Shown here: positions 6,784-23,637 of the stretch, in pieces | How positions within the stretch are numbered: the stretch's first letter is position 1 | Layout: every line of letters starts with the position of its first letter | Origin: a virus | Length of the DNA: 23,690 bases | Virus record (IMG/VR): IMGVR_UViG_3300006735_000265 | Coordinates: 1 to 23,690 of that record | Strand: one strand, 5' to 3' | Notes under the pieces: generated by a model | What the model was told of the DNA's origin: nothing | Database searches by the model: none | What the model saw: only the letters and a program-made list of their open reading frames with translations | Position numbers and translations under genes: made by a program

Positions 6784-8658
6784 TCAGGAAGCGTACTCTT
6801 CACCGAGGAGTCCACGACAGATAACGAGTCCATACATATCTGGACGAACCATCTTCTTGGCATAGCGAGTCATAACGCCCTTACGTGGGACGAAATCTTC
6901 AGGTCCAAAGATGGTTGGTGTTGTCTGGAGTGGGACATATGGAGCATACACATATCCAGACTCAAGGAAGCTAGTTCCACGACGACCAACGAGAATAACG
7001 TTACGGAGGAAGTATGGGTCAACAATGACATCAAACTTCTTGCTGAGTTGACCAACATTGACGGCACCAATGGAGCCAGTCTCGGCGTCAGCAGTAACGC
7101 TAGCACGGAAGCCAGCGGTGAACTCAAGGATGTTAGCAACCTCTGGTCCACAGACCACAAAGTTAGCACCACCTCTAAGAGTCTTACGGTGAATCTGTGC
7201 AGAAACATCATTGATTGTCTCAATGAGTGTCTCGTACCACTCGGACACTGTACCAGTGAAGTCTGGAGCAGCGGTAGAAGCACCAAGCTCAAGACCAGTC
7301 TCACGGTTCACGAAGAGACCTGGGGAGCGAGACCAGTAGAAGACTGAAGCAGTAGCACCCTCAACGAGGTCAGCAAGAATCTCACGATCAATCTCAAGAG
7401 CAATCTGCTCGGAGAGAATGCTGGTAAGCTCTGTCTCAGCGTCAAGGTTGTGGTAAGCGTTGAGGTCTTGACCCAACTCTGGTGTCCACTTAGCCTTAAG
7501 CTTCTTGGTCTGAGCGGTAACAGCGATGCTGTCAACCTTGATGTCGATCTCTGGAATCTGAGCACTTCCCTCAAGAGCAAAGAGATCACCGACAACTGCA
7601 CCAACAGTAGCGGAAGCATCAATCTGATCTTTGACTGGGAATGTCATGGAGAATTCGGTCATGTTACCCTGTGTTCCAGTGGAACCAGCGAGAACAGTTG
7701 CGTCATTTGTAACCAAGACAAGACGAAGTGCTTCAGCCTGATCAGTCAAGCCAGAACGGAAACCGGAACCACCCTCGTTAGCAACGAGATAGGAAAGGCG
7801 ACGAATCTGCTCAATCTTCTCACCATTAACACCCAAGGAAATACCAAGAAGTGTCTCAAGAGCGGAAGTATCAGTAGTAACACCACCAGTGCGATCTGCG
7901 TTAGCCAAAACGAAAGCAGAGAGGTTATCAAAGTCAGCGTCACCCTCATTAGCAGTAATTGCGGTCTTAGCAACATCCAAGACGTAAACCTGCAAACCAG
8001 AATCTTCAATAGCAAGAAGATCAGGGTCAAATCTGATTAACTTCTTGTTAGCGTCAGAAACAGCACCGTTGAGCAAGAAGGTAGCCTTCTGAACTAAAGC
8101 AGTAGCTCCAGCGGTTACAATAGCATTAAGCGAACCACTTGGGGAAGCATATGCATAACCAACTTTCTGACGAAGACCATTCTCGCCCTGAGTTGTGACA
8201 GTATCAACCAAGTTAATACCACCAGTAATCTGAGCACCAACCTCGTTACCACCATAGATGGACTTGTTGGCAAGGTTACCCATGCGCTGGGTAAATGTCT
8301 CAGACTCTCCAAGATTTGGTGAGTACACGAAATCGAGGAAGAAGATGAGCCCACTTGGGAGACTCATTGGCTGAACGCTAACGAGATCATTAGCAATCAA
8401 GCCTGCGAACACGCGGCGAACGATTGGGAAAGCCACGGCTGCGAAACCCTCAACATCGCCAGCGGCGAGGGAAGAGGACTCACGGAGAAGCTCTTTTGCC
8501 TGGTTCTCAAGCAAACGAGCCATGGAAGCCTTCTTGCGGTCGTTGGTAAGACCCTCAAGAAGCCCTGTGCGCTCCCATTTGGTGAGAAGAGCATTGCTCT
8601 CCGCACGCATATCACGATTGACAACACCTTCGGTCAATCTTTCTACAATACTAGCCAT
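6784..8658 (-). CDS. 23: Major capsid protein, gp23-like
   Basis: This builds the hexameric capsomers of the T4-type head with an HK97 fold. The 624-aa sequence carries RRVFAGLIANDLVSVQPMS (residues 81-99) and PSGLIFFLDF, matching T4 gp23 near its mature N-terminus. It also has a conserved core at about 378-428 (IAVTAQTKKLKAKW, DLNAYHNLDAETELTSILS, EIDREI). The protease gp21 cuts T4-type proteins after (L/I)xE, and LRE at 58-60 (LLRE/SSS) is a good candidate for removing the N-terminal propeptide, with LLE at 49-51 as an alternative. It is about 100 residues longer than T4 gp23 (521 aa), with the excess between residues 110 and 370 where the T4 insertion domain lies. A strong AGGAGGT site precedes the start, 26 bases after the scaffold stop. 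Confidence 0.96.
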   Translation of the reverse strand: MASIVERLTEGVVNRDMRAESNALLTKWERTGLLEGLTNDRKKASMARLLENQAKELLRESSSLAAGDVEGFAAVAFPIVRRVFAGLIANDLVSVQPMSLPSGLIFFLDFVYSPNLGESETFTQRMGNLANKSIYGGNEVGAQITGGINLVDTVTTQGENGLRQKVGYAYASPSGSLNAIVTAGATALVQKATFLLNGAVSDANKKLIRFDPDLLAIEDSGLQVYVLDVAKTAITANEGDADFDNLSAFVLANADRTGGVTTDTSALETLLGISLGVNGEKIEQIRRLSYLVANEGGSGFRSGLTDQAEALRLVLVTNDATVLAGSTGTQGNMTEFSMTFPVKDQIDASATVGAVVGDLFALEGSAQIPEIDIKVDSIAVTAQTKKLKAKWTPELGQDLNAYHNLDAETELTSILSEQIALEIDREILADLVEGATASVFYWSRSPGLFVNRETGLELGASTAAPDFTGTVSEWYETLIETINDVSAQIHRKTLRGGANFVVCGPEVANILEFTAGFRASVTADAETGSIGAVNVGQLSKKFDVIVDPYFLRNVILVGRRGTSFLESGYVYAPYVPLQTTPTIFGPEDFVPRKGVMTRYAKKMVRPDMYGLVICRGLLGEEYAS

Positions 8659-8684: not shown

Positions 8685-9803
8685 TTATTTAATTCCGGCT
8701 AAACGTTGCATACGCTCTGCGAATGCATCATGTTTAGGTGTACTTTCCTTGCGGGAAGCACGAATAACAGACGAAGGACGACTAATAGCTTCGCTCAATG
8801 ATTTTGGTCCACGGTTTGGTGTAGACTCCACTGTACTTTGAAGTGTATTATAAATTGTTCTTGCCTCTGTTACAGAATCGGCTTTTGAAATAGCTTCGAC
8901 AATTCTTGTTTTCTGTCGCTCATTTAAGGAGGTATTTCGTAATACGCGATTCGTATATAATAAACGTGCATTGGAAAGGTTAACATTTTGCAATGTTTCC
9001 TTTAACTCCCCTGCGACGCTTTTAAAGTTAGTAAGCTGCTCGTTAAGTTGGTTATTTTCAAAAACCAACTCTTCCGTCGCTTTCTTTAAAGTCTCTAATT
9101 CTTCTTCGACATCTGTGCTGCGGCGATGTGCGATCTCTTTCTCCATCTGGAACTTTATGTCCTCAGAGGAGCGACCAGCCCATCCAGCCAATGATGCACC
9201 CATATCAACTGTAAGCTTCTCAACGATTGAATCTAACAATTCATCGGAGATTTCTAATTCTTCTTCCATTGTGTCGAGAACAGCCTCATCTTGCTCTGCG
9301 GAAGCTTTCGCCTCATCAGCAGATTGCTCGCCGGCGGAGGCACCAACTTCCACATCATCCTCTTGGAGGAGAGCAGCAAGAATAGCCTCTTCAATCTCGA
9401 TATCCTCATCAAGTTCTTCCTCATCCTCGTCGTCGCGAGCACCAGGAACAGATGGCATTGAAGGCATAGACATTTCTTGAAGAGCTTCTTTAAGAGCGCC
9501 AAGATCTAAATTAACCTCAACGTCCTCGCCTTCCTCGGCTAACTGCTTAAGATTATCGCCTTCCATCTCACTTAAACTATCTGTAGCAGCAAGTGGCACG
9601 TTCTCAACGTCTTCTTCCAAAGAATCATCACCCTCTGCAGGAGCATCCTCGTCAAGGCCTAACTCGTCCTGCTCTAAAAGCTGTTCGAGAGTCTCGCGGA
9701 CCTCTGTTGAATACTTATCAACAATAGCAGCTTCTGCATTCTTGAGGGCTGCTTCACGCAATGCTTGTGCATCTACAATGGCTTCTTTGAGTAAGTTGGA
9801 CAT
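8685..9803 (-). CDS. 22: Prohead core scaffold protein, gp22-like
   Basis: The scaffold fills the prohead and is degraded by gp21 before packaging. The 372-aa sequence has the expected composition: a long, very acidic N-terminal half (for example ARDDEDEEELDEDIEIEEA), then a coiled-coil segment (VEEELETLKKATEELVFENN onwards), then NARLLYTNRVLRNTSLNERQ and a basic C-terminus ending ERMQRLAGIK. The C-terminal end probably binds the shell. Several (L/I)xE sites are present, as expected for a core protein that is digested. It lies directly ahead of gp23, as in T4, and the two probably share one transcript. AAGGAG lies 6-11 bases before ATG 9803, with a putative promoter 31 bases upstream. Confidence 0.9.
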   Translation of the reverse strand: MSNLLKEAIVDAQALREAALKNAEAAIVDKYSTEVRETLEQLLEQDELGLDEDAPAEGDDSLEEDVENVPLAATDSLSEMEGDNLKQLAEEGEDVEVNLDLGALKEALQEMSMPSMPSVPGARDDEDEEELDEDIEIEEAILAALLQEDDVEVGASAGEQSADEAKASAEQDEAVLDTMEEELEISDELLDSIVEKLTVDMGASLAGWAGRSSEDIKFQMEKEIAHRRSTDVEEELETLKKATEELVFENNQLNEQLTNFKSVAGELKETLQNVNLSNARLLYTNRVLRNTSLNERQKTRIVEAISKADSVTEARTIYNTLQSTVESTPNRGPKSLSEAISRPSSVIRASRKESTPKHDAFAERMQRLAGIK

Positions 9804-10133: not shown

Positions 10134-13100
10134 CTATGCCTCATTAGCGCCGGTGCCTGTCTCAGAGGCGCCTGGCTGCGAAGCCACAAAGTTCCAGAAT
10201 AATCTAAAAGATCCCGAGGCACTTGAACAAGTGCTAGTTGATTGGGTTCCTATCGCCACATACAATCTAGAACCACTGACGTTATCACTGAAATCAGTAG
10301 CGGTGCCACTATCATTTTCTTGACTATATACAGTTCCATCACTTTCTCTAGGGGAAACAGATATGATTGAGGGGTCTCCTCTATTGTCGATAAAGGTCAT
10401 AGCATCTAAATGAACACGCGATGCGGCACCGGGGCTTCTATTACTTAATGCTTTAAATGTTTCAGTCTCACCGCCAACAGATAAATAAGGTTTAATTGTA
10501 TAGTTAGAGGTGGAAGTGTGACCGTAGTTATATAAAAGAGTAAAATCTGGCGTGGTGTCATCCCCACTGTATGGCTGACTAACAATACCATAAGCACAAA
10601 TTAATCTAGGTCCGCCGCTTTGAACTGTCCCAGCATTGTTAAACCCGGTAAAGCTTGTCTTGCCAGTGCCGTCTTCGTGAGGAACTGTTTCCATTGTAAG
10701 CATCAAAACACCTGCTTTGCCCTCTTTACCTAAGCTGTGCATAGCTGGTGCTAATCTATCTTGAAGGTAATTTTCCGGGGAATAAAATTGAACTGGGAAC
10801 AATTTTGGCTCATTTAATGTTCTATTTGGAACATTATCTGCAAGACCAGCAATTGGATTGTGTCCGAAAGTAAATATACCATTAGAAGCGCTGATAAAAC
10901 ACGCATTAGCTTCATCGGCAGTGGCGTTTACACCTTTAACCAAAGTCCAGCCTTCCAAATCCATAACTTGGATTCTTCTATAAGGATTTTCAGTTCCATA
11001 GTCAGCAGAGGCAGTTACAATAATAGACTCGCCACTATCATCAGTAATTGTACATCTAATGTTATGCACACCTTTTTCAAGTGCTGTAAAATCAACACTT
11101 TGACTAATTGGTCCAACACTTGGGTCACTTTGGAAATTAGAGAAGTTAACGCCTTCAGTCGAAGATGTTATGTTGCTTGGTGTTACAACAGACCAAGAGA
11201 AAGTTTCGCCACCCGTTCCACCACCCACACTTGCTGTTAGAGTTTGTGTTGCAACAGAGCCAGTCTTCGCTGTGTTCAGGTCCCCTGGAATGCGCGCATC
11301 CCCGGACACAGACGAAGAAATAAATCCTGAAAGTGGTGTGCCAACAACCTTACTTTGTGCATGCGAAGCTGATAATGTTGGTGTAGCGTTATCAGAAACG
11401 GTGCAGGTAACTGTATAGAGTCCAACTCTTTCTGGAGTAAATGTTGGATTTTGTGTAGCAGCGTTATCAAATTCTGATGTGGTGGTAGAGCCATCTGGTC
11501 TAACTGCAGTCCAAGCAAAACTTAATGGAGCGGTTCCACCAAGTGCGACAGCAGATAAGCTTTGTGTATCTAAGTTATCTGCCGTAATCATACCTAGCGA
11601 CAACAGAGACAAATCACCTGCTCCTCCTCCAGAGCCTGTAACACCTAAAAATGCAGACGCTGTGGCAAAGAAAACACTATTCTCTTCATCTTGTACCCTA
11701 ACTGAAACAACATTAACTCCCTCCACAGAGGCTGAAAAAGTAGTGCTTTGACTTAAAGGAGTTGCAGAGAAATTACTGAACTCTGAATTTGTTGATAATC
11801 CAGTTGGGCTTAACACATGCCATGTGAATGTGTAAGAGCCAGTTCCACCAACTATACTTGCAGTCACATCTTGTGGAGCAAAGGAGGCACTGTTTACAAG
11901 ACCAGTAATTGATCCGTTAAGCTTCTCTCCTATAAAAGCAGTCTCAGTGTTTGTGGCCGTTAAAGCAGGAATAGAGCTATCTGTTGCTGTGCATATTACA
12001 GTGTACAAGCCAACCGAGAGGGGTCTAAATCCTGGGTTTTGTGCTGTTCTATCACTAAACTCTAAGACACTAGGAGATCCATCTGGCTTAATAGCAACCC
12101 AATTAAATGTGTATGGCGAAGCTCCACTAACAGTTGTGGCGCTCAAGCTTTGACTAAAGAAACTAGACGTTGAGGCTAATCCAGAACTTGTAACAGTAAA
12201 GTCTGAGCCTGTAATTCCTAATTCTGCTGATGATGTTGCAAATACTGAATTGCCTGCTTCATCGGAAACATACACAGACACTACGTTCAAACCGGCAACG
12301 TCTGGAGTAAATGTAACACTATGACTTAAAGGAATACTGGAAAAATTAGAAAACTCATTTGTAGAAGCTGAGGCCTCTACATCCGTATTATTCCAAACCA
12401 ATGTATAAGAGCCGCTGCCTCCTCCAACGCTGGCGGTGATATCTTGACCAGCCATTGAACCAGTGTTTAACAAAGTGCTTAAACTAGCAGACAGCACTTG
12501 TCCCATAAATTTAGACTGTGTGCTTGTGGCTGTTAATGCTGGTGTTGAAGAGTCTGTTGCTGTACAAACAACGGTATACAATCCTACTCTTAACGCTCTG
12601 AACCCTGGATTCTGTGTTGTAGCGCTGCTAAATTCTGCTGTGCTAGTTGTTCCGTCAGGTCTAATTGCTGACCAATTAAAGCTGTAGGGTGATGCTCCGC
12701 TTATTGTTGTGGCAGATAAACTTTGACTTGCAAAACTTACACTTGTAACTAAGCCGGAAGCTGTAACGTTAAAGTCTGAACCGGTAACACCCAAAGTAAC
12801 AGATGCTGTTGTTTCAACTGATGTTCCAGAATCATCTGTGACTCTGACAGCCAAAGAATTAAGTCCTGGGAATATTGGTGTAAATGTTGCACTTTGACTT
12901 AATGTTCCATTAGAAGCAGAAGAGAAATTAGAATATTCAGCAACTGAACCTGTTCCATCAGAATTCGCATTAGACCAAATATATGTTTCGGTGCCAGTGC
13001 CGCCAGCAATACTTGCGGTTACATCTTGTGCAGTCATGACAGCATTACTGGCGATGCCGGTAATACTCACTGATAATTGAGTTCCCACAACTTGTGCAAT

Positions 13101-14555
13101 GTTGCTACTGGCGGTTAAAACTGGTATTGAGCTATCTGTAACTGTACATGTTACTGAGTTTAAACCAACTCTAGCTGGCGTGAATAGAATAGCAGGATTT
13201 GTTGTTGAATTAAACTCACTTGTGCTATCTGAACCATCCGGACGAACATTAGACCAGACATAAGAATACGGCTCCGTGCCGCCTGTAACACTTGCAGTTA
13301 TAGGCTGTCCGAGCAAGCCACTGGAAGCTGTGAATCCAGATATCACATTTTGTAGATCCGAACCAGTTAATCCAATCTCAGCAGATGCTGTAGCCATAAC
13401 TCTACCATTGCCGGCATCAGTTACCAGACATCTAACAAGGTTATGCCCTGCATGTGACGCCGAGAAAAAGCAACTTTGACTTAATGGGTTTGTAGAAAAA
13501 CCAGAAAACTCAGAGGTTGAAATAGTGGCGTCGGGCTTTACAACTGACCATTGGAATGAATAAGAACCAGTGCCACCGGTGGCGCTAGCTGTTAATGCCT
13601 GTGCAGCGTTTGAACTAGTTGTTTGTAGTCCATTTATTGATGCAGCTATTTCTACACCTATAAACTTAGAATCTGTAGCGCTCGCAGTTAGCCCAACTCC
13701 AACATCTGGTGTATCAGTAACTGTGCATGTTACAGAATAAAGACCAACGCGTTGTGGTGTAAATCTTGGAGCATCGGATGTTGCGCTGCTAAACTCAGAG
13801 GTACTGGTTGAACCATCAGGTCTAGTCGCAGACCAAGCATAATTATATGGTGAAATACCACCAGCAACTGTTGTTGTTAAATTTTGATGAAGCAAGCTTG
13901 ATGTTGCAGTTAGCCCACTAATTGATAACGATAAATCAGATGCTGTGACGCCAATTATTGCAGATGATGTTGCAGAAACAATAGAGCCTGCACTATCAGC
14001 AACTCTAACTTTTACAACATTTAATCCTTTCAGGGCAACAGTAAAACTACAACTAGGTTGATTTGTTGCTGAAAACTCTGATGTTGAAGTTGTTCCATCT
14101 GATCTGAGAACTGTCCAATTGTATGAGTAAGGGGTCACCCCTCCAGCAACACTAGCTGTGAGAGCTTGTAGGGCGATTGAAGCAGTTTGTACTAGCCCGA
14201 CTACACTAGCAGATAAATCAGTTCCAATGACTTTCGCTTGAGTATCACTAGCTGAAAGTTGTGTTGTTGAGCTATCAGTAACCGTGCAGGTTACAGAATA
14301 TAATCCAGCAGCAGCAGGAGCAAATAAAACACTAGCACTAGCGTTGGCCGAACCCTCAGTAAACTCTGAGGTACTAACAGTACCGTCAGGTCTGACAGCC
14401 GACCAACTAAAGCCATAGTCCAATGTACCACCAGTGGCACTAGCTGTTAAAGCTTGTGCACCTAAACTGGTAGTAGCCACCAAACCACTTGCTGTTACTG
14501 ATAAATCAGGAGGATCATCAGCAGCGGGATTAATAAAAGCCCAACTGAAACCCAT
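10134..14555 (-). CDS. Giant Ig/PKD-like repeat protein, probable virion surface fibre (1473 aa)
   Basis: Residues from about 15 to 1187 form 12 tandem domains of about 93-105 aa with the beta-sandwich pattern of PKD/Ig-like modules (YxFxWSxxRPDG, STSEFS, GLYSVTCTVTDSS). Odd and even domains differ. Type A has FTPxRVGLYSVTCTVTDS and ends in a VIG-type linker. Type B has SNFSxxPLSQS, then GLNVVxVRVxDExG and an LGVTGSD linker. The last 286 residues (from about TENPYRRIQVMDLEGW) are non-repetitive and contain four scattered cysteines, and could be a receptor-binding or anchoring domain. There is no signal peptide. The start follows the 138-aa stop codon directly. By analogy with T4 Hoc, which also has Ig-like domains, it may decorate the capsid, but a neck or whisker fibre is possible. 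The exact target is unknown. Confidence 0.85.
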   Translation of the reverse strand: MGFSWAFINPAADDPPDLSVTASGLVATTSLGAQALTASATGGTLDYGFSWSAVRPDGTVSTSEFTEGSANASASVLFAPAAAGLYSVTCTVTDSSTTQLSASDTQAKVIGTDLSASVVGLVQTASIALQALTASVAGGVTPYSYNWTVLRSDGTTSTSEFSATNQPSCSFTVALKGLNVVKVRVADSAGSIVSATSSAIIGVTASDLSLSISGLTATSSLLHQNLTTTVAGGISPYNYAWSATRPDGSTSTSEFSSATSDAPRFTPQRVGLYSVTCTVTDTPDVGVGLTASATDSKFIGVEIAASINGLQTTSSNAAQALTASATGGTGSYSFQWSVVKPDATISTSEFSGFSTNPLSQSCFFSASHAGHNLVRCLVTDAGNGRVMATASAEIGLTGSDLQNVISGFTASSGLLGQPITASVTGGTEPYSYVWSNVRPDGSDSTSEFNSTTNPAILFTPARVGLNSVTCTVTDSSIPVLTASSNIAQVVGTQLSVSITGIASNAVMTAQDVTASIAGGTGTETYIWSNANSDGTGSVAEYSNFSSASNGTLSQSATFTPIFPGLNSLAVRVTDDSGTSVETTASVTLGVTGSDFNVTASGLVTSVSFASQSLSATTISGASPYSFNWSAIRPDGTTSTAEFSSATTQNPGFRALRVGLYTVVCTATDSSTPALTATSTQSKFMGQVLSASLSTLLNTGSMAGQDITASVGGGSGSYTLVWNNTDVEASASTNEFSNFSSIPLSHSVTFTPDVAGLNVVSVYVSDEAGNSVFATSSAELGITGSDFTVTSSGLASTSSFFSQSLSATTVSGASPYTFNWVAIKPDGSPSVLEFSDRTAQNPGFRPLSVGLYTVICTATDSSIPALTATNTETAFIGEKLNGSITGLVNSASFAPQDVTASIVGGTGSYTFTWHVLSPTGLSTNSEFSNFSATPLSQSTTFSASVEGVNVVSVRVQDEENSVFFATASAFLGVTGSGGGAGDLSLLSLGMITADNLDTQSLSAVALGGTAPLSFAWTAVRPDGSTTTSEFDNAATQNPTFTPERVGLYTVTCTVSDNATPTLSASHAQSKVVGTPLSGFISSSVSGDARIPGDLNTAKTGSVATQTLTASVGGGTGGETFSWSVVTPSNITSSTEGVNFSNFQSDPSVGPISQSVDFTALEKGVHNIRCTITDDSGESIIVTASADYGTENPYRRIQVMDLEGWTLVKGVNATADEANACFISASNGIFTFGHNPIAGLADNVPNRTLNEPKLFPVQFYSPENYLQDRLAPAMHSLGKEGKAGVLMLTMETVPHEDGTGKTSFTGFNNAGTVQSGGPRLICAYGIVSQPYSGDDTTPDFTLLYNYGHTSTSNYTIKPYLSVGGETETFKALSNRSPGAASRVHLDAMTFIDNRGDPSIISVSPRESDGTVYSQENDSGTATDFSDNVSGSRLYVAIGTQSTSTCSSASGSFRLFWNFVASQPGASETGTGANEA
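10995..14515 (-). repeat. Twelve Ig/PKD-like coding repeats in six A/B pairs
   Basis: The repeats are clear in the protein but diverged at the DNA level. A-type domains occupy positions 1, 3, 5, 7, 9 and 11, and B-type domains positions 2, 4, 6, 8, 10 and 12, so the unit of duplication looks like a pair of about 190 residues. A-domains 7, 9 and 11 share (T/A)QNPxF, and B-domains 6 and 8 share the TxSGASPY junction that follows them. This suggests recent duplication of a pair in the middle of the array. Boundaries are approximate. Confidence 0.8.
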
Positions 14556-14972
14556 TTAACCTACTCCGACAGAACCAGACCAATTAGGACCAGTAGAGCC
14601 CGAAACCCTAACTCCATCAATGTTAGTTAAACCAGCAACAACATCAATAGCATTAGAGCCAGAAAGATATATGGAGGCAACCTTAAGTTCTAAAACTCCA
14701 GAGGTGCCTGTAGAACCATTTGCATCGGCATCGGCCTTAGCAACTATAAAATAGTTGGAACCGGCCACAACACCATTTTGGGAAAACCCAACTCTACAGT
14801 CCGCTGTTCCTCTGTTAATAACTTGAAACCATCTACTAAGATTTGGAAAAGAGATCTCATGACCATTAGTCACTGTAGCATCAATATTTCCACTTGCGAA
14901 TGGTCTTCCACTAACCTGATAAGCTCCGACGTGATTAACGCCAACTCCTGTTTTCCAACCCTTTGCACTCAT
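14556..14972 (-). CDS. Putative virion surface or decoration protein, 138 aa
   Basis: I cannot name a family. The protein begins MSAKGWKTGVGVNHVGAYQV and is Gly/Ser/Ala-rich and apparently all-beta, with RWFQVINRGTADCRVGFSQN in the middle and an ending of SGSTGPNWSGSVGVG. Its length and composition fit a small capsid decoration protein or the trimeric base of a fibre. It has a strong GGAGG ribosome site, and its TAA stop is directly followed by the ATG of the 1473-aa gene, so the two are probably translationally coupled and may work as a pair (anchor plus fibre). That pairing is inference from layout. Confidence 0.75.
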   Translation of the reverse strand: MSAKGWKTGVGVNHVGAYQVSGRPFASGNIDATVTNGHEISFPNLSRWFQVINRGTADCRVGFSQNGVVAGSNYFIVAKADADANGSTGTSGVLELKVASIYLSGSNAIDVVAGLTNIDGVRVSGSTGPNWSGSVGVG

Positions 14973-15002: not shown

Positions 15003-15010
15003 TAAATAGT
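15003..15010 (-). promoter_or_regulatory. Putative late promoter element ACTATTTA ahead of the 138-aa/fibre unit
   Basis: The coding strand reads TAACTATTTATAAGTG. The first A of the motif is also the last A of the bS21 stop codon. It lies 31 bases upstream of the 138-aa start. The opposite strand of the same site reads TATAAATA, but no gene runs in that direction. Confidence 0.45.
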
Positions 15011-15249
15011 TAGTTTTTGTTTCTATTACGCTTTTGTCTTTTCTTTTCTTCACGAAGCCTTGTGCGTTGGGCTCTAATTCTCTTTTGCTTTTTTGCCTCA
15101 GATGGTTTTTTGTGATATTGGCGATCACGAAACTCCTCAACAATTCTAGTTTTCTTTGTTTTTTTAAGGAATCTTCTGATCATTCTATCTGCATTATTTT
15201 TGCAAGATCTCGCGTCTACAGAAAAATTGACACTTTTACCTCTACTCAT
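15010..15249 (-). CDS. rpsU: Ribosomal protein bS21 homologue encoded by the phage
   Basis: bS21 sits on the platform of the 30S subunit near the anti-Shine-Dalgarno end of 16S rRNA and aids initiation. The 79-aa product matches the family: RMIRRFLKKTKKTRIVEEF (residues 22-40), then RDRQYHKKPSE (41-51) against the bacterial R-R-x-F/Y-x-K-P-[ST] signature, followed by a basic helix KKQKRIRAQRTRLREEKK and an NRNKN tail. Escherichia coli S21 is 71 aa. The start at 15249 overlaps the previous stop as ATGA, with GGAAGG 9 bases upstream; a TTG at 15264 is an inferior alternative. It lies among head genes, so it is probably made late. Phage-encoded bS21 is known from marine phages; a role in steering ribosomes to phage mRNA is a hypothesis. 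Confidence 0.88.
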   Translation of the reverse strand: MSRGKSVNFSVDARSCKNNADRMIRRFLKKTKKTRIVEEFRDRQYHKKPSEAKKQKRIRAQRTRLREEKKRQKRNRNKN

Positions 15250-15677
15250 TTTATTGCCTTCCAAACTTGTGAAGCGCCACCAATCAAAGAGCTAATATCA
15301 ACACCAGCGTCGCTTGGGTCTCCCAAGTCAACTGTTCCTGGTTTTGGTCCAGAGGATGTCGCCTCTCTATTACTTAATGGCTCGGTGCCCTCAAACAAAT
15401 TAACTCCATTATAGGCATCATTGCCAATTGAATCCATCAATTTTTTACGATGTTCTCTAAGTTTTTTATTAGATTTTTGAACCTGCTTTTTGATTTGCTG
15501 GTCTTCATTAAATAGAGCGTCAGATGTTTTTTGCTTTGTTTCTACAATAACATTCTGGTTCATTCCCTGAGCAACCTCGGAAACAATGTTTGTCAATAGC
15601 CCGCTTTCTAAAAGAACTTCGTGGATACATTCTTTTACAACTGGCTTAATTAATCTTTTAAGTTCATTCTTTTTCAT
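15246..15677 (-). CDS. Hypothetical protein, possible head core protein, 143 aa
   Basis: No named family is recognised. The N-terminus MKKNELKRLIKPVVKECIHE continues as an amphipathic helix into VLLESGLL, where LLE/S fits the (L/I)xE cleavage rule of T4 prohead protease. The middle is highly charged and helical (QQIKKQVQKSNKKLREHRKK), and the C-terminal third is Gly/Ser/Pro-rich (SSGPKPGTVDLGDPSDAGVD), ending IGGASQVWKAIK. It starts 3 bases after the 274-aa gene with only a weak ribosome site (GAAGAG), and its stop overlaps the bS21 start. Together with the protease two genes upstream, this suggests a prohead core or internal head protein, but that is inference. Confidence 0.75.
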   Translation of the reverse strand: MKKNELKRLIKPVVKECIHEVLLESGLLTNIVSEVAQGMNQNVIVETKQKTSDALFNEDQQIKKQVQKSNKKLREHRKKLMDSIGNDAYNGVNLFEGTEPLSNREATSSGPKPGTVDLGDPSDAGVDISSLIGGASQVWKAIK

Positions 15678-15680
15678 TAT

Positions 15681-16505
15681 TTACTCTTCTAGTGTTTCAC
15701 TATAAACAGGGTCTGGGGGACCGAAGATTCCAAAACCTAAATAATCGGTTATTGGGTGTGCCTCTCCGGGCATCAAAGTATCGGCTACAAGGGCACCAAA
15801 CCAAAATACCCCAGGAGCAATACCAGGAATATCGTATTTAACATTTCTTAAATCAGAAGCCCCCTCAAATATTAAGCCAGCTTTAACTAATCGATTTAAT
15901 CCTCTTGCTATTTCCTCTGGTTGTAGCATTTGATACAATTGATAAATCTCTCCCAGATCCGTCCAGCTATCGCAGAACCTCTCTACACGATCATAGCCAA
16001 CAAAAGTTGTTAAATATAAGTAAGCTTCACTCTCATCGGGTAATACTATGGCACCAATAGCTCTAGTTAAAAGAGAAGATACAATATCTGTTACTTGATC
16101 GCCAACACTATCAACACCTGGAATAACCCCTAAAGCTGTGTTGATTGCTGCGATTCCCATAAGGACCGGGTGTCTCGATGCAATCGCTCCAGAAGCTATC
16201 GCTCCGTCAATAGCTACTTCAACAGGCTGCATTAATGGCTTCAATCCAGCACCAACAACGTAGCCTAGAAGCCGTGTAGTAAAATCTCGTGGGGAACAAC
16301 CAGCGGGGGGCGCGCTTCCAGAAGGAGCTAAAGCCTCCTCATCTTCGGGGGCGCCTTGATATATTGTAGTATCGCGATAAAGATCAGGGTCATAAGTTTT
16401 ACCCAAAGTCCCTGCTTTAGCTAAACCGACTCGCTCCTCTGAAATAAAAACTCTCCAGTTTTCCATGAGAAGCTGATCGCTTTTATAGCTGGACCATTTA
16501 CTCAT
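15681..16505 (-). CDS. Hypothetical protein with MENWxxF N-terminal motif, 274 aa
   Basis: No named family is recognised. Residues 11-24 (QLLMENWRVFISEE) contain a motif shared with the 103-aa protein upstream of the terminase. The central region is unusually hydrophobic and Ala/Gly/Ile-rich (from LLGYVVGAGLKPL through HPVLMGIAAINTALGVIPGV and LLTRAIGAIVL) and could be membrane-active or buried helices. The C-terminal part is more polar, with YDRVERFCDSWTDLGEIYQL and an aromatic, proline-rich end (FWFGALVADTL, FGIFGPPDPVY). The start overlaps the protease stop by 8 bases, which implies coupled translation. A packaged internal head protein or a membrane-interacting ejected protein would fit, but neither is demonstrated. 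Confidence 0.78.
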   Translation of the reverse strand: MSKWSSYKSDQLLMENWRVFISEERVGLAKAGTLGKTYDPDLYRDTTIYQGAPEDEEALAPSGSAPPAGCSPRDFTTRLLGYVVGAGLKPLMQPVEVAIDGAIASGAIASRHPVLMGIAAINTALGVIPGVDSVGDQVTDIVSSLLTRAIGAIVLPDESEAYLYLTTFVGYDRVERFCDSWTDLGEIYQLYQMLQPEEIARGLNRLVKAGLIFEGASDLRNVKYDIPGIAPGVFWFGALVADTLMPGEAHPITDYLGFGIFGPPDPVYSETLEE

Positions 16506-17103
16506 CGTCTAAAACCTCATTGAGCAGACGATTAATACGATCTGCTTTTGTAAATACTTTGTTTGTATAATCTTTGGCTTCTTTCATCATAAAAGCGCCA
16601 GGAGTTGAAGGCTCGGAAACAAAGTCAAAACAAATTAACTGAAAGTCATCCTCGACCATTGTGCGACCCTGGGACTCTGAAACAGAACCCATACCGCGAG
16701 AAGAAATACCAAGAGTCACACCGGACTCAACAAGGGAACGAAGAATTTTGCCAGATGGTGTATCAAGCACACGGGCTTTACCCATAACGGACTTACCATC
16801 CCACCAAACATCTGTAATCATGTGTGATGCGTTCTTAAGATTGATAACGGAATCTTCTGGGTGATCTAGCTCGCCAAGTGCTCTGTTTTCTTTTACAAGC
16901 TTCTCATAGTTCTTCATTTCTCTCATCAATACGCGATGAGGATAAACGCGACCATTTCCATTCTGAACATCAGCTTCTTGAAGCTTGCCAGAAAGCATCA
17001 TACCGCCGTCAGCAACAAAACGCTTCTCTTCCTCGGTAAGAAGATCTTTACAAACTCCTCCCTCGCACAAAGCATAAAATTCTCTTAATAATTTTTGACT
17101 CAT
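16498..17103 (-). CDS. 21: Prohead core protease, gp21-like
   Basis: This serine protease of the T4/herpes assemblin type digests the scaffold and trims the capsid protein inside the prohead. The 201-aa sequence is close to T4 gp21 (212 aa). The catalytic His is in GELDHPED (His81) and the nucleophilic Ser in LGISSRGMGS (Ser134 or Ser135), with supporting D160 in ICFDFVSEPSTPGA. The N-terminal GRVYPHRVL motif is also typical. The start at 17103 follows a GGGAAAGAG site and a terminator-like hairpin 22 bases upstream. Its own substrates in this window probably include gp22, gp23 and the proteins carrying N-terminal (L/I)xE sites. Confidence 0.92.
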   Translation of the reverse strand: MSQKLLREFYALCEGGVCKDLLTEEEKRFVADGGMMLSGKLQEADVQNGNGRVYPHRVLMREMKNYEKLVKENRALGELDHPEDSVINLKNASHMITDVWWDGKSVMGKARVLDTPSGKILRSLVESGVTLGISSRGMGSVSESQGRTMVEDDFQLICFDFVSEPSTPGAFMMKEAKDYTNKVFTKADRINRLLNEVLDDE

Positions 17104-18369: not shown

Positions 18370-19180
18370 TGTAAATCTCTCCAACTAATGATTGTGTTTT
18401 AAGAACAGTCATTAAAACATTTTCGCTGATTGTTTCTTTGGCAAAGGAATCAAGCTTTTCAATAATCTGATTTGTCTTACCGAGCATGTCCTCATCGTTT
18501 TTAATAGATTCAACATCAACAGCTTCAGCAAGCTTTCCCTTGAGGCGACCAATCTCTGTATTAAGATACATCTTAAGTTCCAAGTTGTTGTCGGAAAAGG
18601 ATGTAATATAACGAGTAAGAAGTTCTTTTTGTTCTTGGAGAAGATCAGAATCATACTTCTCATTAAATTTTTTAACAAATGTTTTATAAGTTAAACTATC
18701 AATACTGCCAGCCTCTTTAGCAGGCGAAGTCATAGTCATCCCTTTAATAATTTCTACTTCCATAATCACTTTATTTTTTGGGGATGTCTTTGTAGAAAAC
18801 ATTTGATCGATTGTGGCGAGAGATTTATAATTTGGAACAAAATTATTAAAAACATCCGAAGAGAGTTCTTTGTTGACATCATGAATTAATTCTGTTTGTT
18901 GCTTAAAGAGACCTGTTGGATCTATTAAATGCTTTTGCATTCTCACTTCATTGAGAATTTTTTGTGATGTAGTCTTATCAAGATTTTGATTTTCATACAA
19001 TGAACGGTAACATTCGAGATCTTGCTTCAGAATACTTTGAGGATGAAAATGTTTCTTAATAATAGAAACAGTCTTTTCTTTTCTTTCAGCATCATTTTTG
19101 AGGATGGCAACAGTAGCCTCCCTCACAAGTGCTTCATAAACAAAAGCAGTGTTGCGCTTTTTATTATGTTTAACTTTCAT
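18353..19180 (-). CDS. Hypothetical helical protein following the portal, 275 aa
   Basis: No named family is recognised. The protein begins MKVKHNKKRNTAFVYEALVR and is predicted by composition to be almost entirely helical and highly charged, including KKHFHPQSILKQDLECYRSL and a C-terminal region LKGKLAEAVDVESIKNDEDM that looks coiled-coil-like. ATG 19180 has GGAG 8 bases upstream and overlaps the portal stop by 11 bases; an earlier in-frame start at 19249 would bury the gene in the portal. In T4 the corresponding place holds core genes 67 and 68. A scaffold or portal-associated assembly function is a reasonable hypothesis, without direct evidence. Confidence 0.78.
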   Translation of the reverse strand: MKVKHNKKRNTAFVYEALVREATVAILKNDAERKEKTVSIIKKHFHPQSILKQDLECYRSLYENQNLDKTTSQKILNEVRMQKHLIDPTGLFKQQTELIHDVNKELSSDVFNNFVPNYKSLATIDQMFSTKTSPKNKVIMEVEIIKGMTMTSPAKEAGSIDSLTYKTFVKKFNEKYDSDLLQEQKELLTRYITSFSDNNLELKMYLNTEIGRLKGKLAEAVDVESIKNDEDMLGKTNQIIEKLDSFAKETISENVLMTVLKTQSLVGEIYNGDND

Positions 19181-21170
19181 TCTTTTGCTCCAGTAAAATC
19201 TCTTCTTTAGTTTCCAGTTCTTCCAAAAGCACTCGGACAGAACTATCAATCTCGAAAAGACGTGACTCTTCGTTACGTTCTCTCAATGTATAAGTAGATT
19301 CCTCTTGCTCGTAAATACCCACATTTGCACCAATTGGCTTAGCGAGAGTTCCGATTTCAGAACCAGGGAATGTGTTTCTTTTGCCAGAGCTAGCTTTTTG
19401 GGCGCCCCCTGCTGCCTTCATAGATCTTGAGCGAGGACCTCCTCCAGAGCGTCTATCATCTCTCTTAGGAAAGTATTTTTTTCCTTTTGCCTGTGGTTCC
19501 AAAGATTTAACTGTGGGGGTGTCTCGTGAGCCTGGAGGCACTGCTAACAATGGTGACTCATCTCCTCCTGCCTCTGGCGTTTCAGCGGGCGCTTCAGGTG
19601 CTAAATCTGCTGGCTCTACTTCTGCTGGACCTTCTTCTGCTCCAAGGTCTGCGCCCAAGTCAGCACCCAGGTCAGCCCCCAAGTCGGCACCTAAATCACC
19701 AGCACCACCTGCGGCTGCCTGTTCAGCGACCGCCTGAAGAGAGGCATCATGCTTGCGATCATAATACATTTCTCTTTGGTTGCGAATAAACTCTTCGTTA
19801 GACATTCCAAAAATATGCTCTGTAACCCAACGACGCGAGAAGAATCCTTCTGTTGCTGATGCAGCAATATCAAACTTTTGCTTCCAGTGCTCAATCTCTT
19901 GAAGCTCTGCGATCTTAGATGGATTATTAAGAGAAAGCTCAAAGTTTAGAAGATCGTCGCCACGGAATCCAAGAGTATAAAGGTGAATAATTCCAATCTT
20001 TGTAAGCTCTGCAATAATGACACGCTGTAATCTCTGAATGGTTCTGGCAAAACGAATATCTTTTTGTGCTAATGTTGTTTTGTCTTCTGCCGAACCCTCA
20101 CCCATTGCAAGATATGCTTGTGGGATCTTAAGAGCAGAAAACAATTTATCACGAAGATATTTAATATCATCAATTGCTGTAATATTTTGGGCGCCTGCAA
20201 GAGACTGAATGTCTGTGACAGAACCCGCACGCACTGGGATGTAATAATCCTCCTCAATGGACATTGGGTTATAACGAAGATCAACTTGTCCAGTACTCGG
20301 ATCGACAACAGAATGTCTTTTTAATTGAGTAACCACTTTCTCCATATATTGCTCAACATCTTGTGGGGGAATCGCTCCTACATCAATTTTAAATACACGA
20401 CGTTCAGAAGAGCGCACAACGCGATATGCCATCATAGCATCTTCCATTAACGTAAGCTGCCTCCAGATACGTCTAGCGGGCTCCAAAATTGATGAGCCAT
20501 ACGGCATATACTTATCATTTCCTAAGATGCGGAAATGGGAAATCTGCCAGTTTTCAAAAGTCATTCCGGCGGAGTTCCACTGATATTGGGTATAATTTGG
20601 ATTGGTGGCATCTTTGCCTTCCAATCTTTCAACTTCAGAAGGAGGCAAAGCTATTACAGACTTGACACCATATTTATCATCAATATCAAGATACAAAAAG
20701 AAGTCACCATACTTACACATGGTGCGTGACCAACCAAAAAGATTATACTTAAGGTTTAGAACTTGATCAAAAAGGATCGTAAGGACTGCCTTGATCTCTT
20801 CGTTTGTACATTTAATATTTAACATTGGATTTAGTTGAGAATATGTTGTCATCTCATCTGCATAAATATCAAGCGTTGAAGCAATTTCTGGTGTGTATTC
20901 CATTTGATCAAAGTCAACGTACCTTTCTACTCGACGTTGATTTGCCATGGCGTCAGTAGCAACAACATCCAATGGATTGTATACAGATTTTTTAAACTGT
21001 TGCCCAGAAGCAGACTTAAATCTTGACCCAAATTTATCTAAATGCTGTCGGCGAATACGACGACCAGATTGCGAGCGATAGTTAATAATTGGTCCGGAGA
21101 ACAATCTAGTAAGCGCTTTGAATAAATCCGATTGTGGATTTGCTGGGTTTCTTGAGTTTCTTTTTGCCAT
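19170..21170 (-). CDS. 20: Portal protein, gp20-like
   Basis: The portal is the 12-subunit ring at the packaging vertex; it nucleates head assembly and docks the terminase and then gp13. The 666-aa sequence has strong T4-portal features: VYNPLDVVATDAM, VERYVDFDQMEYTPEIASTL with IYADEMTT, ISHFRILGNDKYMPYGSSIL, then YRVVRSSERRVFKIDVG and LRDKLFSALKIPQAYL, and FGMSNEEFIRNQREMYYDRK. T4 gp20 is 524 aa; the excess is a C-terminal tail from about residue 480 that is low-complexity, with four GADL repeats, Pro/Glu/Ala-rich sequence and a basic Gly/Arg stretch (DDRRSGGGPRSRSMKAAGG), then an acidic helical end. The start follows the terminase stop by 8 bases. Confidence 0.95.
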   Translation of the reverse strand: MAKRNSRNPANPQSDLFKALTRLFSGPIINYRSQSGRRIRRQHLDKFGSRFKSASGQQFKKSVYNPLDVVATDAMANQRRVERYVDFDQMEYTPEIASTLDIYADEMTTYSQLNPMLNIKCTNEEIKAVLTILFDQVLNLKYNLFGWSRTMCKYGDFFLYLDIDDKYGVKSVIALPPSEVERLEGKDATNPNYTQYQWNSAGMTFENWQISHFRILGNDKYMPYGSSILEPARRIWRQLTLMEDAMMAYRVVRSSERRVFKIDVGAIPPQDVEQYMEKVVTQLKRHSVVDPSTGQVDLRYNPMSIEEDYYIPVRAGSVTDIQSLAGAQNITAIDDIKYLRDKLFSALKIPQAYLAMGEGSAEDKTTLAQKDIRFARTIQRLQRVIIAELTKIGIIHLYTLGFRGDDLLNFELSLNNPSKIAELQEIEHWKQKFDIAASATEGFFSRRWVTEHIFGMSNEEFIRNQREMYYDRKHDASLQAVAEQAAAGGAGDLGADLGADLGADLGADLGAEEGPAEVEPADLAPEAPAETPEAGGDESPLLAVPPGSRDTPTVKSLEPQAKGKKYFPKRDDRRSGGGPRSRSMKAAGGAQKASSGKRNTFPGSEIGTLAKPIGANVGIYEQEESTYTLRERNEESRLFEIDSSVRVLLEELETKEEILLEQKNES
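19644..19691 (-). repeat. Four 12-bp coding repeats (GADL) in the portal tail
   Basis: The coding strand carries four consecutive 12-base units, each encoding Gly-Ala-Asp-Leu, flanked by related GDL and GAE codons. No two units are identical: Gly uses GGT, GGG and GGC, Ala GCC, GCT and GCA, Leu TTG, CTG and CTT. Asp is GAC in all four. Confidence 0.9.
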
Positions 21171-21178
21171 TTATTATC

Positions 21179-22762
21179 TCACTTTATAATCCAGTTAAAC
21201 TGCTCATACATTTTTTGTGCTTCGGTCTTTTGTTGTAGTGCACTATCTTTTTTATATCCAATCTGTCCTGCAATTTGTGTATTCATTGTTGTTTTAGATG
21301 TTATGATAGCATTTGAGAAAGCCATTTGATAATTTAACTCCCTGGCATTTGCTTGTAAAGCCGTATCGCGTACCCAACAACAAATAGCTAGCGCCATGAT
21401 TAAATCATCATGATACCCTTTCATTGCTTGCGGTTTGCCATGACTCCAAATAAAAGTCTTGAATTCACCAGCTATACGAGTAGAATATATCTTAATTAGT
21501 TTATTTCTTATAAACTCCTCTAATTTAGCAATGATAAGAGGCCTAGTCTTCATGCTGGTAGAAAAGCCCGGCACAGCAGAGTTATGAACTTCAGCTTGAT
21601 GCTGTTCAATATACTCGTGTGTCGATTTAATTGAGTAATACAAATTAGGATAGTTATATTCTATCAGTTTATCCAGAACTGTGTAGCCAATATTATTATT
21701 TTCTACAACCAGCATGCAGTTTCCAAACTCTCTACCATGTTGGTTTAGCATCTGTGCAAACATATCTGGAGTTACCTTACCTTGATATTCTCCAATAACT
21801 TCAAGGGTTTCCAACTTTAAGATATGAAACGTTGAGTAGTCTTCGCCATCACCGCGAGCAACATCCGCAACCATTAAATAATTGCAAGATGGATCATATT
21901 CTTCCCATAACCAGAAGTTTCTATCAAAGCCAGTTCGGTACTTTGGCTCACAAACTGTTGTGAGTAACCACTCCATATCTCCTGAATCGATAACTGTATC
22001 ACCAGAAGTATTGAAGTTACACTCAAGCTCTTGTGCAATTTGTCGCTTTGACATATTCTTAGTTTCTTTGTAGAACCATTCCTTATCTCTATCCGGATGA
22101 ACATCCCATGGCAAAACTGTTAGATTAAAATTATTTGCCTTTGCCTCTGCGTCAGTACAAGTTTTATGAAACCAGTTACCAACACCATTAGGAGTGGATA
22201 GAGCAATACAGCGACCACCAGTAGACAGAGTAGGATACAAACCAGTCCACAGATCTTCTAGTCCTTCAATATGTGCTGCCTCATCAAGGACCAACAAAGA
22301 CAATGCTTCCGAACGACCAGCATCACCAGAGGTAGAAGCAGCCTTAATAGAAGAACCGTTAGACAACTCAAAGGATGTGCGGTTATCGATATTAATACTT
22401 GAGATGCGAATCCAATCAGGAAGATTCTTCATAATCTTCTTGACCTTGTTTACTAAGTTTCCTGCTGTCGCAAACTTAGTAGCCATAACAAGGACAGCCT
22501 TATCTCTATGAAACAACATAAGCCAAACAATATATCCGGCTGTGATTGTTGAGATACCAAGCTGTCTTGCTTTCAGAATGACGTTAAAGCGATAATCATT
22601 AAAGTCTTTTAACAGAACATCCTGAAAAGGGTATGTATTAAAAAGAATTAATCCGTGAAGAGGATGTGAAATTCTGGCGTAAGTCTTCAAAAAATAAACG
22701 GGGTCTTTACCACATTTAAGTATTTCTTGAACTCTTTTCTTTTTGTCTAACTTGAACGCCAT
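21179..22762 (-). CDS. 17: Terminase large subunit, gp17-like packaging ATPase/nuclease
   Basis: This motor cuts concatemeric DNA and pumps it through the portal. In the 527-aa product the ATPase domain shows ARQLGIST (residues 65-72, the terminase-type Walker A), LLVLDEAAHIE (156-166, Walker B with catalytic E161) and LSTPNGVGNWF (188-198, coupling motif). The nuclease domain shows MVADVARGDGEDYSTFHI with D300, VVENNNIGY with E354, and YHDDLIMAL with D452/D453, the three acidic groups of the RNase H-like fold. It is shorter than T4 gp17 (610 aa). It lies directly ahead of the portal. The start follows the previous stop by 13 bases with only a weak ribosome site (AATAGAAATGA), which suggests lower expression than its neighbours. 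Confidence 0.96.
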   Translation of the reverse strand: MAFKLDKKKRVQEILKCGKDPVYFLKTYARISHPLHGLILFNTYPFQDVLLKDFNDYRFNVILKARQLGISTITAGYIVWLMLFHRDKAVLVMATKFATAGNLVNKVKKIMKNLPDWIRISSINIDNRTSFELSNGSSIKAASTSGDAGRSEALSLLVLDEAAHIEGLEDLWTGLYPTLSTGGRCIALSTPNGVGNWFHKTCTDAEAKANNFNLTVLPWDVHPDRDKEWFYKETKNMSKRQIAQELECNFNTSGDTVIDSGDMEWLLTTVCEPKYRTGFDRNFWLWEEYDPSCNYLMVADVARGDGEDYSTFHILKLETLEVIGEYQGKVTPDMFAQMLNQHGREFGNCMLVVENNNIGYTVLDKLIEYNYPNLYYSIKSTHEYIEQHQAEVHNSAVPGFSTSMKTRPLIIAKLEEFIRNKLIKIYSTRIAGEFKTFIWSHGKPQAMKGYHDDLIMALAICCWVRDTALQANARELNYQMAFSNAIITSKTTMNTQIAGQIGYKKDSALQQKTEAQKMYEQFNWIIK

Positions 22763-22775
22763 TCATTTCTATTGG

Positions 22776-23087
22776 TTACGACGGCTTCTCTAATTGTCCT
22801 GGGACATCTTGCTTTAATTGCTCTAATTGCTTTTTAAGTAAATCAATCTTATCTTCAAGATTCATTACCTCAACTTGCTTAGCAAAATACTGGTTTGTGC
22901 TTCTAATGTCCATCATATCCTCGTCAGGGGTAGCGGAATAGCCAACACCACGCTCCATGTTCTCCATGCCTCGCGTAGCATCATCAATAGCATCACTTAA
23001 TCTTTCAAGTTTTGCCTCAATGCCTTTGATGTGATCTTCTTTAGACTCGGAAACAAAAGTATTCCAGTTTTCCATTAACATTTTCAT
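22776..23087 (-). CDS. Coiled-coil protein upstream of terminase, 103 aa
   Basis: The protein opens MKMLMENWNTFVSESKEDHI, carrying the MENWxxF motif also found in the 274-aa protein. It continues as heptad-rich helix (EAKLERLSDAIDDATRGMEN and VMNLEDKIDLLKKQLEQLKQ), ending VPGQLEKPS. The start at ATG 23087 has AAGGAA upstream and lies 1 base after the preceding gene; a longer reading from 23168 would overlap that gene by 80 bases. Its place before gp17 is where T4 has small terminase gp16, also rich in coiled coil, so that is one possibility. The shared N-terminal motif argues instead for a head-targeted protein. Neither role is established. Confidence 0.72.
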   Translation of the reverse strand: MKMLMENWNTFVSESKEDHIKGIEAKLERLSDAIDDATRGMENMERGVGYSATPDEDMMDIRSTNQYFAKQVEVMNLEDKIDLLKKQLEQLKQDVPGQLEKPS

Positions 23088-23088
23088 T

Positions 23089-23637
23089 TCAAGATTCCTT
23101 CTTGCGTGTATCATTCTCTGGGCGCTTACCGCCTTCGCCATTCCAGCCGCCCTGACTAACAAAGTCACGCCATCTGTCTTCTGCCTGTGCTTTGGAGCCT
23201 GTCTCGTTATTCATCTCTTCGTCAAGTCCGCCAACTCTAAAATTAAGTTTAGCGTTAACAAAGGAGCGCACACGAGAAGAATTTTGAACCATAACATCAA
23301 TCTCGCCTTCTTTTGTAAGGGTAACTGCGTTTCCAGTGATGCGCTTATATTCACCTTTGAGCCATTTAGAAATGTCCATCATACGCTGCTCTGTATCAGA
23401 TTCGAATCCAGAGGCATAAATTTCTTTTAACTGAACGTCAGACTGATAAGTAAGGCACATCATATTGCCGAAGAACTTAACACCGAAGCCATCCATAACG
23501 CGATGGTCGAGCATCATATCACCCTCTTCACGCTTCAGACCAATCTTCACTGGTTCGCCTTTCTCATCCAAAGCGCCATCATATCCGTTGGCTGCTGCTT
23601 GGGATAGACCCTGAACTATTTCATAAATTGTTGCCAT
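23089..23637 (-). CDS. Hypothetical protein, 182 aa
   Basis: No named function is recognised. The sequence begins MATIYEIVQGLSQAAANGYD and contains LDHRVMDGFGVKFFGNMMCL, a likely alpha/beta core, then ISKWLKGEYKRITGNAVTLT and VMVQNSSRVRSFVNAKLNFR. The C-terminal 40 residues are polar and probably disordered (NNETGSKAQAEDRW to RPENDTRKKES). An AGGAA ribosome site precedes ATG 23637, 11 bases after the previous stop. It is first in a tightly packed run leading into terminase and portal, so a packaging or head-vertex role is possible, by position only. Confidence 0.78.
   Translation of the reverse strand: MATIYEIVQGLSQAAANGYDGALDEKGEPVKIGLKREEGDMMLDHRVMDGFGVKFFGNMMCLTYQSDVQLKEIYASGFESDTEQRMMDISKWLKGEYKRITGNAVTLTKEGEIDVMVQNSSRVRSFVNAKLNFRVGGLDEEMNNETGSKAQAEDRWRDFVSQGGWNGEGGKRPENDTRKKES

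Follow-up and report, generated by a model that had tools for sequence, protein, structure and literature searches.

Phage-encoded ribosomal protein bS21 has been described before. A survey of 900 bS21 phages by Chen et al. (2022, PMC9723584) detected a prohead protease close to the gene in 310. The freshwater Bacteroidetes phages of that study, whose bS21 forms five clades, are myoviruses. Their bS21 gene lies amid the genes for terminase, portal, prohead protease and major capsid protein, but on the other strand, and next to it is a conserved gene for a hypothetical protein (bS21_CN). Divergence of their bS21 is concentrated in the N-terminal helix, which the authors place over the anti-Shine-Dalgarno (ASD) sequence and mRNA, and an aromatic residue is kept at position 54. 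The bS21 of the myovirus Pelagibacter phage HTVC008M, published as derived from the Pelagibacter host, enters E. coli 70S ribosomes; E. coli ribosomes with viral bS21 had about 5% activity, and this is the sole functional test of a viral bS21 (Mizuno 2019, PMC6375957). Finally, the cultured Microcystis phage Mel-JY01 (PP395634) carries a gene annotated as 'RpsU ribosomal protein S21', flanked by the prohead protease gene with a 154-aa ORF on one side and by scaffold/capsid genes on the other.

The locus analysed here belongs to a 23,690-base IMG/VR virus record, the whole of which we call the window. It is a well-supported further case of a phenomenon known from work of 2019-2022 and does not constitute a new type of system. 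As in the Bacteroidetes phages of Chen et al., bS21 sits among head genes, is paired with a conserved hypothetical ORF (here a 143-aa partner, U143) and diverges mainly in the N-terminal helix; since the protease was near bS21 in 310 of their phages, members of the group of the window may well be among those. Mel-JY01 has its co-directional S21 gene in the same slot, although that S21 is just 26% and its terminase 43% identical to those of the window. What is added to the known picture is a co-directional overlap with U143, near-fixation measured independently of selection on S21, a signature of the clade, the lack of an aromatic residue at position 54 and a test of Shine-Dalgarno (SD) usage. 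The features referred to below are as follows.

6784-8658, minus strand: major capsid protein gp23 (PF07068, E 1.3e-73)
8685-9803, minus strand: probable scaffold/core protein, assigned solely from its position between protease and major capsid protein (synteny); no informative family in Pfam/PHROG
10134-14555, minus strand: 1473-aa repeat protein with Ig/PKD-like domains (PF22352 PKD, E 9.1e-16; PF13573 SprB repeat), probably a surface decoration
14556-14972, minus strand: 138-aa ORF downstream of bS21, often conserved there (synteny); no Pfam match
15010-15249, minus strand: phage bS21 (rpsU-like) gene, 79 aa (PF01165 and TIGR00030 above curated cut-offs)
15246-15249, minus strand: ATGA overlap of the U143 stop (TGA) with the bS21 start (ATG), from the sequence
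15246-15677, minus strand: U143, conserved 143-aa partner ORF, adjoining bS21 in nearly all relatives
15257-15262, minus strand: likely SD of bS21, GGAAGG, 7 nt before the ATG
15681-16505, minus strand: variable ORF between protease and U143; no family match in Pfam and PHROG searches
16498-17103, minus strand: prohead protease, gp21/Peptidase_S77 (PF03420, E 2.8e-34)
19170-21170, minus strand: portal protein gp20 (PF07230, E 8.9e-79)
21179-22762, minus strand: large terminase (phrog_2, E 4.4e-53; PF03237)

The ORF at 15010-15249 encodes a genuine bS21 homologue, and the virus carrying it is a T4-like myovirus. The earlier note had identified it as such from its core residues and named a PF01165 search as the check, and the search bears this out: the product, MSRGKSVNFSVDARSCKNNADRMIRRFLKKTKKTRIVEEFRDRQYHKKPSEAKKQKRIRAQRTRLREEKKRQKRNRNKN, matches Ribosomal_S21 (PF01165) with E 8.8e-10 and 38.6 bits (curated cut-off 27), residues 18-64 covering profile positions 7-54/55. 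It also matches TIGR00030 (S21p) with 34.4 bits (curated cut-off 28.95) and PHROG 21469 'ribosomal protein S21' with E 6.9e-6, and when a profile of 25 phage S21 relatives was compared with the PDB, bS21 chains headed the list (best E 3e-13). The AF2 model has helices at residues 20-34, 36-44 and 49-78 (pLDDT 86); a Foldseek search with it gave no match, which is uninformative at such short helical size. Relatives with 90-94% identity were found on seven other viral contigs. The mechanically called ORF opens at a TTG at 15264, but the ATG at 15249, which has GGAAGG 7 nt upstream, fits best as the start. The predicted ASD pairing of this site is -5.5 kcal/mol, and it is shared with loci L002, L003, L005, L006 and L009.

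The location inside a head-assembly cluster, also claimed by the earlier note, holds as well: Peptidase_S77/gp21, Gp23, Portal_T4 and terminase genes surround bS21, all on the minus strand and co-directional with it. The ATGA overlap is common to close relatives, while in most others the two genes are separated by about -8 to +17 nt; we infer from the overlap that U143 and bS21 are translationally coupled. U143 itself had no match in Pfam or PDB and no significant PHROG, and its AF2 model is helical with low confidence (mean pLDDT 65). T4-type late promoters (TATAAATA) gave 40 near-matches against 32.6 expected, exact ones occurring only on the wrong strand, and sigma-70-like sites were found at chance frequency.

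Parts of the block around the pair are variable. Between the 138-aa ORF and the scaffold candidate lies a swappable cassette (10134-14555 in the window, compared with L006:8685-13588), which in the window holds the 1473-aa Ig/PKD repeat protein, to which a 1456-aa protein of L005 is related; in L006 its place is taken by four different ORFs (224, 250, 704 and 381 aa). Hypervariability also marks the ORF that separates protease and U143: across the window and its relatives it has 274 to 877 aa or is absent altogether; its start, MSxWSSxKxDQLxMExW, is still conserved among close relatives. Otherwise dissimilar ORFs (window 22776-23168 and 15681-16505, L002:4113-4613, L042:9663-10241) have a motif of the type M/I-E-N/S-W-x-x-F/Y in common at the N-terminus, which may be a prohead-targeting or cleavage peptide.

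A search of viral contigs with S21 gave 37 loci. The synteny is constant: terminase, portal, several small ORFs, protease, the variable ORF, U143 and S21 are followed by a variable surface-protein block and then by scaffold and capsid genes. U143 and the protease were also used as queries, so as to avoid selection on S21. Among the 80 best U143 loci, S21 lay directly downstream on the same strand in 78, and in the other two the contigs stop 34 and 86 bases past U143. Among the 50 loci of the protease search with at least 2.5 kb downstream, 46 contained U143 and S21, three contained U143 only (for at least one of these the contig may stop too early) and neither gene was present in the last one. 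S21 shared the strand of the protease in all 58 cases in which it was detected, so that the co-directional arrangement (78/78 and 58/58 relatives) differs from the opposite-strand bS21 of the Chen et al. phages. Each of three relatives of 191-203 kb has one copy of the S21 gene. The U143-S21 pair belongs to the core of a large group of uncultivated myoviruses that is represented by hundreds of contigs; in this lineage bS21 is near-fixed, not an occasional acquisition, its sequence carries a distinctive signature and its neighbour is almost always the same. S21 was not detectable in L236 and L255, two long loci that have the protease of the group; they are candidate natural losses, and of the two L236 retains U143, while L255 has neither gene.

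S21 is under purifying selection, with dN/dS of about 0.04-0.06 among close relatives, with synonymous sites near saturation. Of the 70 sequences in a tree, 33 phage S21s group in a single clade (support 99/96) apart from the sampled Bacteroidota and Pseudomonadota bS21; the alignment is short, and the deep forks of the tree are therefore unsure. Two phage S21s with a different gene context (L037 and L038) group with Pseudomonadota bS21 as a second phage type. The clade of the window does not group with the sampled Pseudomonadota sequences and in this differs from the HTVC008M type, of which grouping with alphaproteobacterial bS21 is characteristic. Mel-JY01 was reached through terminase similarity (tblastn of the window S21 against named phages gave no match at E 0.01), and membership of its S21 in the phage clade was neither shown nor rejected (AU p 0.45). 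Against the phage profile, the best sampled cellular S21s scored 50.5 bits (Bacteroidota) and 49.7 bits (Pseudomonadota), while phage members scored 67-116 bits. With cellular scores of about 50 bits in both phyla, no recent donor is visible among them, and the profile does not discriminate between hosts.

Compared with cellular bS21 (PF01165/TIGR00030), the phage protein retains the whole family core, F-x-K/R-K...R-x-Y/F-x-K-P-S/T, including the K-P-S/T turn. The differences are found in helix 1 and at the C-terminus, where the phage clade has a long, very basic tail. Cellular helix 1 reads F-K-[K/R]-x-x-[E/Q/D]-[R/K] and that of the phages F-[L/I/N/T]-K-K-[T/V/C]-K-K. Counted from KPS, position -20 has L/I/other in place of K, -16 K in place of E/Q, -10 E in place of K/R and -6 D/E in place of K, and the G at -13 is lost in most members. 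The FLKKTKK signature was at first suspect, because the contig search had used that string as query. Among S21s retrieved independently through U143 or the protease, however, the pattern from -20 to -15 recurs in looser form, and the signature is thus broader yet consistent.

The earlier note had further stated that most genes keep clear GGAG/AGGA sites and that the phage protein may therefore favour late messages with strong SDs. The first statement stands: of the larger genes in the window, 75% are preceded by an SD core (shuffles: 15%), and 81% show ASD pairing at -5 kcal/mol or better (shuffles: 24%). As for the second, which is not new but the main hypothesis of Chen et al. (PMC9723584), a modest excess in head regions speaks for it. 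Across eight relatives, good ASD pairing was predicted for 73% of genes in head regions (74/101) and 57% in other regions (185/322), an odds ratio of about 2.0 (p 0.005), with noise added by first-ATG gene starts. This excess would be explicable by high expression alone, and replication genes carry strong SDs too: in one relative (G183), pairing energies were -8.3 for RecA, -10.7 for UvdE, -6.0 for exonuclease, -5.8 for DnaB and -8.4 kcal/mol for Pol III alpha. Since SDs are used genome-wide and the head excess is modest, late messages with strong SDs are no special class here, and bS21 seems not to act as a plain reader of late-gene SDs. Its selection of strong-SD late messages is weakly supported, and the version in which it favours SD-led late genes has to be tempered.

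We consider it probable (roughly 0.7) that bS21 acts in ribosome substitution or supplementation, i.e. that it is made with the head proteins, docks on the 30S subunit and biases late initiation. It would be produced from one co-directional block, in overlap with U143. Given this position in the head operon and the ATGA overlap, late synthesis is likely, and late co-transcription of bS21 with structural genes has been measured in other bS21 phages (Chen et al. 2022, PMC9723584). By analogy with HTVC008M, the protein could plausibly exchange onto host ribosomes. The phage protein would then dock on the 30S platform beside the 16S 3' tail, replacing or adding to host bS21, and its altered N-terminal helix may shift initiation towards phage messages during heavy late translation; alternatively, it may maintain the competence of 30S subunits at times of host bS21 shortage. 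Replacement or supplementation of the loosely bound host protein, with biased initiation late in infection, is already in the literature and is the simplest interpretation. The activity of about 5% of ribosomes with viral bS21 and the spread of SDs beyond late genes count against this role. The defined set of residues, together with the cultured Mel-JY01, makes ribosome substitution testable.

Among the alternatives, packaging fares best, although we regard it as rather unlikely. In this case bS21 would be a basic internal protein of the prohead, perhaps packed together with U143, and would either serve in the head or be injected and act on ribosomes from the start of infection. The fixed spot in the prohead gene block beside U143 and the very basic C-terminal tail fit such a fate, SDs on early genes fit action from the start of infection, and encapsulation was raised as a possibility by Chen et al. 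(PMC9723584). On the other hand, the core residues of the ribosomal family are kept under selection, and no packaging signal is known. It is improbable, too, that a protein of bS21 descent now serves outside the ribosome as an RNA-binding regulator, for example of its own operon. One report (PMC12054373) places bS21 in the OLE ribonucleoprotein complex, and it is the helix-1 stretch that is altered in the phage protein; however, the core residues are kept, no known RNA family was found in the window, and incorporation into ribosomes was demonstrated for another viral bS21.

A little less probable still is a Bacteroidota host with SD-blind ribosomes, in which a phage bS21 devoid of the Tyr54-type aromatic would free the ASD so that SD-led phage messages win. 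From a strong-SD template, the protein output of F. johnsoniae ribosomes with bS21(Y54A) was 3-fold higher (PMC9976891), and at the Tyr54 position the window bS21 has Arg62, unlike the phages of Chen et al.; R is found there in 72/78 relatives and an aromatic in none. However, several Bacteroidota bS21 likewise have R at this position, so the residue alone does not exclude a Bacteroidota host. The phage is SD-rich and its nearest cultured terminases are from Flavobacterium phages (47%, immuto nearest), but immuto itself is almost devoid of SDs (5% by the same pairing measure). A contig of one relative was binned in a Flavobacteriaceae MAG, that of another in an Acidiferrobacteraceae MAG, and host matching with the tmRNA of a relative reached the conserved 3' end only. 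The idea is weakened by these conflicting hints and by the SDs on replication genes, which are needed before late bS21; SD-rich genes argue against a Bacteroidetes host, and an SD-using host is the simpler reading. Very improbable is a combination in which U143 and bS21 are packed together and the injected bS21, without the ASD-blocking aromatic, makes SD-blind host ribosomes SD-reading from the start; conversion at the onset of infection would account for a phage genome that is SD-led as a whole. Recent capture of a host gene without function is scarcely credible: the gene is small and mobile and viral bS21 has been captured repeatedly (PMC6375957), but dN/dS and near-fixation contradict it, and the sampled Bacteroidota and Pseudomonadota contain no close cellular relative.

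In a Flavobacteriaceae MAG, the rpsU gene (L047:1500-1680) has a strong SD (AAGGAGGA) and encodes a Tyr54-type bS21, as expected for an autoregulated Flavobacterium gene. The 203-kb relative G192, which has bS21, also encodes a tmRNA (L258:9469-9890; tag ANNNNNFESVRLAA) together with Asn, Leu, Ile and Lys tRNAs; ribosome rescue thus travels with a ribosomal protein in this genome. The relative G183 (L082, L080) encodes a bacterial-type DNA polymerase III alpha, RecA, UvdE, a class II ribonucleotide reductase and IMP dehydrogenase, and has a weak tubulin/FtsZ match.
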